Notes under the pieces: model-generated
What the model saw: the letters and a program-made list of their open reading frames with translations, nothing else
Databases searched by the model: none
What the model was told of the DNA's origin: nothing
Shown: piece after piece, positions 41,305 through 42,840 of the stretch
Position numbering within the stretch: the stretch's first letter is position 1
How the letters are laid out: every line of letters begins with the position of its first letter
Program-made: the position numbers and the translations under genes
Assembly: GCA_002711995.1 (NCBI GenBank)
Contig: PASN01000014.1
Span: 124,001-188,000 of the forward strand
DNA: 64,000 nucleotides
Direction of reading: 5' to 3'
Origin: Halobacteriovoraceae bacterium
GTDB lineage: Bacteria; Bdellovibrionota; Bacteriovoracia; Bacteriovoracales; Bacteriovoracaceae

Positions 41305-41967
41305 ATGAGAGCTCTAGCTGCCTTGGCCCTTGCGTTGTTTTCAACAACACTTTTTGCGAGTGCCAATTTAAACAAAACCGAATTAAAGGAACTGGAGAGA
41401 AAGCTCCTGGAAAAGAAGTTTAGCAAACACTACAATTGTTTCATTGATGGAGTCCAGGTTTCAGCTATGGCGGCGCTAGAGGCGGTGCCATTCATGGCCG
41501 CTATGGGGGCGGTTAAAGTTTACCATACAGCACCAAAGCTAGTTCCCTCAGGAAGTGTGTTTTTTACTGATGGCCTGCACGATGTTGGAAGAGCACAGGC
41601 CGGAGCCATGTTAGGAGAAGTCCAAGTAGACGATATGTTTATTAACCTCCTTCTAGGGGCCGGATCTATTTATATTGATGTTTATAAGCACGGATTTAAG
41701 GTTCTCAAAGGAGAAGCTGAACTGGGTGAAAAGGTTGACCTTTATTACACAAAGAAAAACTTCTCTGGGACTATCGCTGCTTCGGAAGATCTTCTAGAGC
41801 CTAGCGGGAAGAAGAATTCTCTAAGATGCATTGACCTGCACAAAGAAGTGGACTCCCTGGAAAGCACTCTCGCGCAAGTAGATGGAAGTGCTAGAAGTGA
41901 ACATAAGCAAACTGCAGGTAAAAGAGTAGCGCCTCTATATAAAAAGACAGAAGTACTCCCAAACTAA
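41305..41967 (+). CDS. exported protein of unknown function
   Basis: 220 residues from the ATG at 41305, with GGAGGA 4 bases upstream; the frame also opens at a TTG at 41293. Signal peptide ALAALALALFSTTLFA with mature start near SANLNK. The middle part is unusually rich in small residues (SAMAALEAVPFMAAMGAVKVY, then INLLLGAGSIYIDVY), which could contact a membrane. The C-terminal third is polar. No family recognised. The macrodomain gene starts 19 bases downstream, so the two are probably co-expressed and may act together. Confidence 0.75.
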   Translation: MRALAALALALFSTTLFASANLNKTELKELERKLLEKKFSKHYNCFIDGVQVSAMAALEAVPFMAAMGAVKVYHTAPKLVPSGSVFFTDGLHDVGRAQAGAMLGEVQVDDMFINLLLGAGSIYIDVYKHGFKVLKGEAELGEKVDLYYTKKNFSGTIAASEDLLEPSGKKNSLRCIDLHKEVDSLESTLAQVDGSARSEHKQTAGKRVAPLYKKTEVLPN

Positions 41968-41986
41968 GTTAAAAAAAGGAATGGAA

Positions 41987-42808
41987 ATGAAACGTTTAGT
42001 AACTTTTATTTTATTTATTTTTAGTCTTCAGGCCATGGGCTTTGGTGGTAGTGCTGGAGTTTATGATCTAAGTTCAGAGGATCGCGTGCTTGCTGCAAAA
42101 ATTGAGCATAATCAGTCAGATCAATTTTTAGATGTTCAAATGGTTCCGAGCGGCTCGGCAGTTTTGACTGAATCAGGCGATCTAAAAAATCAGGGCATTC
42201 AAGGTATACTTCATGCTGCAAGTGGAAGCATGACAAGAAATGATGGTGTCTTTAAACCCTCTATCGAGGGCATTACAAATTCCATAAAAAACTCTTTAAT
42301 TCTTGCAAGAGAGAAGGGCTACAGCTCAGTGGCCATCCCATTTATTGGCGGCGGTATCTTCCTTGGACGTCTAGGAATCACTAAAGAGGAGCTCGCTTAC
42401 CATATTGCCAAGGCAAGTCTTCATCACTCTCGCAACCTGAAAATTGTATTTGTAGGCTACACGGAGGAAGACTTCTCCATCCTAGAAGAAGCAAGAGAAC
42501 GGGCGCTAAAAGAGGTTTCTTTTAAAAAGAAGGCATTGGACTTTATCCTCATGAGCGCCTCTGCCAAGAAGCGTTCATCTGTGGCACATGGCTCTCTAGT
42601 AGATTATCAAGTTCATAACTGCGAGCTTGTTATAAACCCCGCAAACACTGAGGTTGCTTTTGGAGGTGGCCTTTCTGGAGTAATCGCAAGGGCCAGCGGT
42701 CAATCTTATCAGATCGATAGGGATGCCCAAGAGCTAATTCAAGAGATTGCAAACGAAAGAAGCCTTAGTAAAAAGTCCGTAGAGAAGTTGAAAGACCTAA
42801 GTCTTTAA
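41987..42808 (+). CDS. exported, apparently circularly permuted macrodomain protein
   Basis: 273 residues from the ATG at 41987 (AAAGGA 6 bases upstream). Signal peptide RLVTFILFIFSLQAMGFG. Residues of about 52-173 match the second half of a macrodomain: VPSGSAVLTESGDL, GILHAASGSM, NSIKNSLILAREKGYSSVAIP, FIGGGIFLGRLG, LKIVFVGYTEEDF. Residues of about 201-248 match the first half: GSLVDYQVHNCELVINPANT, then FGGGLSGVIARASGQ. The usual order is reversed, as in a circular permutation. Macrodomains bind ADP-ribose or hydrolyse its esters; export is unusual. The fold call is from motif order only. Confidence 0.8.
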   Translation: MKRLVTFILFIFSLQAMGFGGSAGVYDLSSEDRVLAAKIEHNQSDQFLDVQMVPSGSAVLTESGDLKNQGIQGILHAASGSMTRNDGVFKPSIEGITNSIKNSLILAREKGYSSVAIPFIGGGIFLGRLGITKEELAYHIAKASLHHSRNLKIVFVGYTEEDFSILEEARERALKEVSFKKKALDFILMSASAKKRSSVAHGSLVDYQVHNCELVINPANTEVAFGGGLSGVIARASGQSYQIDRDAQELIQEIANERSLSKKSVEKLKDLSL

Positions 42809-42816
42809 AAATAACC

Positions 42817-42840
42817 ATGCCCTCCTGCAATGGAGGGCAT
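42817..42840 (+). terminator. hairpin terminator after the macrodomain gene
   Basis: Perfect 9-bp stem ATGCCCTCC/GGAGGGCAT with loop TGCAAT, 8 bases after the stop; the 3' tract is short (TCTGT). Confidence 0.7.

Follow-up and report, generated by a model that had tools for sequence, protein, structure and literature searches.

Among the proteins that read or erase ADP-ribose, macrodomains are a central family. One open reading frame of the window, the whole 64,000-nucleotide stretch of a Halobacteriovoraceae bacterium analyzed here, raises the question of whether a chain that carries the second half of this domain ahead of the first is still a macrodomain, and where and on what such a protein would act. 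The initial annotation had described its product, here P0001, as an exported macrodomain with reversed domain order. The features of the locus are collected in Table 1.

Table 1. Features of the P0001 locus, in window positions
Feature	Position	Strand	Remarks
Exported-looking orphan protein without known domain	41305..41967	+	220 aa; 19-nt gap to ATG 41987
Ribosome-binding-like site AAGGA	41976..41980	+	6 nt 5' of ATG 41987; from the sequence
ORF of P0001, circularly permuted macrodomain protein, predicted to be exported	41987..42808	+	273 aa
Putative signal peptide MKRLVTFILFIFSLQAMG	41987..42040	+	About residues 1-18, approximate cleavage site; from hydropathy and sequence
Macrodomain second half, placed first (beta3 to C-terminal helix)	42134..42502	+	Residues about 50-172; Pfam, NCBIfam, alignment
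Ligand loop 2, IGGGIF	42344..42361	+	Residues 120-125; Phe125 at the ribose-stacking position in the alignments
Linker between ancestral C- and N-termini	42503..42571	+	Residues about 173-195; alignments
Macrodomain first half, placed last (beta1-beta2-alpha1)	42572..42736	+	Residues 196-250; Pfam, rotation tests
Ligand-pocket loop 1, NPAN...FGGG	42635..42670	+	Residues 217-228; alignments
9-bp perfect hairpin directly after the gene	42817..42840	+	T-rich tail on the minus strand only

Order of the macrodomain halves in P0001

We preferred ATG 41987 as the start codon because another ATG in frame, at 41981, is too near the AAGGA site. The N-terminus that follows, MKRLVTFILFIFSLQAMG, is a typical signal peptide, with an 11-residue hydropathy maximum of 2.86 at residue 4. 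Export was predicted from the hydropathy of the N-terminus, and on this measure a signal peptide or hydrophobic, export-like N-terminus is found in P0001 and in its homologs P0002, P0003, P0006 and P0008. A lipobox is present in the decayed homolog L032. P0001 is thus predicted to be exported, as first proposed.

When scanned whole, P0001 matched the Pfam Macro profile (PF01661; E = 1.5e-12, 47.9 bits, against a curated cut-off of 22 bits) in two separate stretches. Residues 52-126 correspond to profile positions 39-108 (E = 1.9e-8 when residues 1-171 are scanned alone), and residues about 216-243 to positions 1-28 (E = 0.012 when the last 102 residues are scanned alone). The NCBIfam macrodomain models gave the same crossed pairs and reached up to model position 179/182. 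Only about 30 residues separate the signal peptide from the second half, so that the first half cannot fit there. This confirms both the reversed order and the lack of space ahead of the second half that had been noted for this reading frame.

Rotating P0001 in silico, for searching only (residues 196-247 followed by 44-175), merged the two stretches into a single continuous Macro match over profile positions 1-108 of 118, scoring 54.2 bits versus 34.7 and 16.0 bits for the separate halves. Rotation likewise yielded a continuous match for the paralog P0002 (70.6 bits) and for the homolog from genome G020 (54.0 bits). With an independent HMM of 176 positions, built from normal-order macrodomains only, the two crossed matches of P0001 scored 27.8 and 14.0 bits and its best rotation 43.5 bits, while none of 40 shuffles exceeded 0.9 bits; the corresponding values for P0002 were 40.2 and 35.5, 74.5 and at most 6.1 bits. 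In the P0002 domain in its native order, residues 6-135 match HMM positions 49-174 (40 bits) and residues 139-198 match positions 5-59 (35 bits), and the best rotation of this domain begins in the linker and spans positions 7-174. Rotation gave no higher-scoring merged match in two of the six domains tested (P0009 and one of two 207-residue sequences), and these two are still crossed in their native order. Since rotated scores lie far above those of shuffled sequences, chance is excluded as the source of the crossed order. P0001 carries the second half before the first in one chain, with both halves complete. Altogether, P0001 is, at the sequence level, a conserved, circularly permuted macrodomain, and the circular permutation originally suggested is borne out to that extent.

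The P0001 chain most likely closes into one complete macrodomain. The ancestral N- and C-termini would be joined through a short linker, the new termini would fall between helix alpha1 and strand beta3, and the ligand loops NAxN...GGG and IGGGIF would be brought together as in normal macrodomains. Alternatively, the halves could be two incomplete domains left by a broken macrodomain tandem, which would either have no function or work as domain-swapped pairs of chains. The AF2 model of P0001, built from a two-sequence alignment, has a mean pLDDT of 53.5 and a pTM of 0.58, and its C-terminal half is not confidently placed, as such remnants might predict; the single-sequence AF2 model of the homolog in record L018 has a mean pLDDT of 50.1. 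With VIA-align, macrodomain chains match the low-confidence AF2 model at residues 24-144 only, with Z about 6-7, below the safe level of the tool. The two halves of P0002 also overlap slightly, HMM positions 49-59 being matched twice, which fits an origin by tandem duplication. Nevertheless, pocket residues in each of the two halves are conserved across six genomes, several members (e.g., P0008) have the short linkers expected of joined termini, and permuted macrodomains of eukaryotes still have the tertiary structure of a macrodomain (PMC5087659), all of which makes two half-domains a highly improbable explanation. The linker of P0001 is longer than that of most homologs. We consider it likely that P0001 is an exported macrodomain that arose through one ancestral circular permutation, adopts a closed fold and would bind an ADP-ribose-type ligand outside the cytoplasm.

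A permuted clade and its relation to known macrodomains

The genome of P0001 carries a second permuted copy, P0002 (G000:C1), with 38% identity over 229 residues, and a Pfam scan of this genome gave no macrodomain beyond these two and none in normal order. The search for homologs with the same domain order, proposed at the outset, also recovered permuted proteins in five other genomes from the phylum: P0003 (G020), P0006 (G171), P0007 (G348), P0008 (G358) and P0009 (G332). The permuted set comprises seven intact members from six genomes, with at least five homologs in other genomes; record L018 (Oligoflexia bacterium) carries the same protein as P0003. The seven intact members have 39 invariant alignment columns in common, and their rotated sequences form one clade in the tree (support 100/99), so that a single permutation event suffices. 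A decayed, lipoprotein-type permuted macro gene (L032:1354-2029), the second copy in G332, has a frameshift and has lost the beta6 region.

Ordinary-order macrodomains occur in other genomes of the family to which P0001's host belongs. The macrodomains in records L019, L020 and L025 have the normal order. They are of a NAWNRN type, carry a PWWLLLPQGVSG insert at loop 1 and form a separate clade in the tree; at the catalytic Asp position they, too, have Ser. Scanning genome contigs with a single protein returned no relatives, and scanning them with the alignment returned one permuted homolog (L018) and two normal-order NAWN-type macrodomains. No permuted macrodomain was found in the viral contigs, plasmids or phages sampled, which are not exhaustive sets. 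Among 398 sampled genomes from a different bacterial phylum, that of G370 (Granulosicoccaceae bacterium, L020), there were partial normal-order matches only and none to the full permuted profile.

Circularly permuted macrodomains are known in eukaryotes, from Dictyostelium APL and from plants (rice), with crystal structures and binding of PAR or ADP-ribose in which a conserved acidic residue, D175, takes part (PMC5087659). As in P0001, their second half precedes the first. The permuted-family profile matched PDB 5lw0, which we took as the rice Q10MW4 entry from its molecule name, in a single continuous stretch that spans the junction (query 122-243, chain 38-163), whereas normal macrodomains matched the profile in two crossed stretches or in one half only. 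The two groups differ in other respects: the known proteins are eukaryotic, the APL domain being part of a DNA-repair protein, while the P0001 family is bacterial and predicted to be exported. The cut site also appears to differ. Only 37 residues precede beta5 in the rice chain, versus about 66 in P0001, counted from the start of beta3, suggesting that the rice domain was cut just before beta5 and the P0001 family before beta3. A piece covering beta3-beta4 alone gave no match to 5lw0. The limits of the 5lw0 match suggest a different cut, which would mean an independent permutation event. Neither bacterial nor exported permuted macrodomains turned up in searches of the open-access literature, so a bacterial family of this kind seems not to have been described before. 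Permutation as such is known from eukaryotic macrodomains; its occurrence in bacterial proteins that are predicted to be exported, with an apparently different cut, seems to be new.

A partly conserved pocket with two Asp-to-Ser changes

Once rotated, the P0001 family aligns with YmdB/MacroD (PDB 5cb3 and 1spv) over the whole domain, NAAN motif and GGG loop included. YmdB itself has the normal domain order and no signal peptide. Loop 1 reads NAAN...FGGG in six permuted members and NPAN...FGGG in P0001, and the alignment shows that this NAAN/NPAN motif, the GGG and the ribose-stacking Phe of loop 2 are kept relative to normal macrodomains. Two functional positions are not. All seven permuted members have Ser (GSIT/GSLV) in place of the Asp of the GDIT motif, which touches adenine in known macrodomain structures. 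They also have Ser (GGG[VLI]SG) in place of the Asp of the GVD motif (GGGGVDGAIH), the catalytic residue of MacroD/YmdB. The GDIT Asp is probably equivalent to rice position D175, so that the permuted family would have Ser where the APL/rice type has an acidic residue. Another residue could stand in for it.

These fixed changes mean that ligand specificity or catalysis is probably unlike that of YmdB/MacroD, and they weaken the ADP-ribose and hydrolase parts of the original reading. Binding of an ADP-ribose-type ligand is nevertheless plausible and the most likely reading of the P0001 pocket given the residues kept, but the protein is unlikely to hydrolyze it by the MacroD route. The ligand would be bound, and perhaps hydrolyzed, in the periplasm or in a prey or host cell.

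The pocket could also have switched to another nucleotide or an NAD-derived ligand, so that the protein would be a binding-only module that scavenges or senses this ligand in the periplasm. The invariant GS and GGGxSG that replace GD and GVDG would suit such a switch, as would Glu222 and His210, both invariant within the permuted family. The rest of the pocket is kept, however, and AF1521-like macrodomains that lack the GVD Asp still bind ADP-ribose, which makes a change of ligand unlikely. In PDB alignments to 1vhu, 1hjz and 9qyd, AF1521/PARP9-type domains have a GGG loop that lacks the catalytic Asp, as in the permuted family; they differ from it in their normal order and, for AF1521, in retaining the GDIT Asp.

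Gene neighbors, fusions and a possible effector role

The protein encoded just upstream had been suggested as a partner of P0001. Their spacing is operon-like and the two genes are probably co-transcribed, with the hairpin downstream as the probable end of the operon. Beyond this spacing the pairing did not hold: the upstream protein has no relatives among 125 family genomes, its gene does not adjoin the paralog P0002, and we rejected it as a conserved partner.

The relatives of P0001 stand in other company. The permuted macrodomain is fused to an alpha/beta hydrolase in P0008, to a further domain in P0007, and in P0009 (L024:13-3429) it is flanked on one side by RCC1 repeats and on the other by a ubiquitin-specific protease domain (UCH, E = 2.7e-21). 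P0009 has 1139 residues, starts beyond the edge of its locus and is a candidate eukaryote-directed effector; its link to ubiquitin points to a eukaryotic target. A region that looks like a DHH phosphoesterase (IPIDHH...AINDR), with no Pfam match, is common to L021:1486-3252 and L023:2133-3143; it is fused to the permuted macrodomain in one genome and encoded by the next gene in another.

In three genomes (L018, L022 and L023), a large exported protein is encoded within about 3 kb of the permuted macrodomain. It combines an NTase-like GG...DxD motif with a conserved H...Y segment (HET...Y...GxGxYT) that resembles an ADP-ribosyltransferase (ART), and the copy in L018 (P0004, L018:1815-4670) carries ankyrin repeats. 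P0004 and its relatives (L036-L055) mostly have 800-1400 residues, with several paralogs per genome in some cases. Neither the NTase-like nor the ART-like region has a Pfam name. The partner is encoded in four of the six genomes with a permuted macrodomain, compared with 13 of all 359 genomes (p about 1.5e-5 by a hypergeometric test, ignoring shared ancestry). That the relatives of P0001 are found next to or within large effector-like proteins suggests that they act outside the cell.

One may imagine P0001-type proteins as exported effectors that read or erase ADP-ribosylation in prey or host cells together with the NTase-ART-like-ankyrin partner. The association of the two genes would fit this role, as would the P0009 fusion and the precedent of Legionella MavL, a bacterial macrodomain effector that works outside the bacterium (PMC10951314). 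The likeness to MavL is one of functional analogy only, and MavL is not described as permuted in the literature found. Against such a role, the genome of P0001 has no convincing copy of the partner, and the ART-like call comes from the H...Y pattern and a single weak match to DUF3990 (E = 0.024), with no match in the PDB. We regard this effector role as tentative and somewhat doubtful. A candidate ART in the genome of P0001 (L068, E = 0.014) was rejected as spurious looking, with 82 residues and an internal stop, and a reading as anti-phage defense was set aside as the macro proteins have no PADLOC match.

Bdellovibrionota-type bacteria are known for predatory or host-associated lives. A wider scenario, which we rate as rather doubtful, would have such bacteria evolve their own permutation independently of eukaryotes, re-tune the pocket by the two Asp-to-Ser changes and use the protein as a reader or eraser of extracellular ADP-ribosylation alongside new NTase-ART-ankyrin effectors. 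The permuted macrodomains in the literature found come from a few eukaryotes only, and a conserved, exported bacterial clade with an apparently different cut would show that this fold has accepted permutation on more than one occasion. This clade would also offer a natural test of which pocket residues set ligand specificity, and its deubiquitinase and hydrolase fusions, together with the ART-like neighbor, point to a possible extracellular ADP-ribose chemistry in bacteria.
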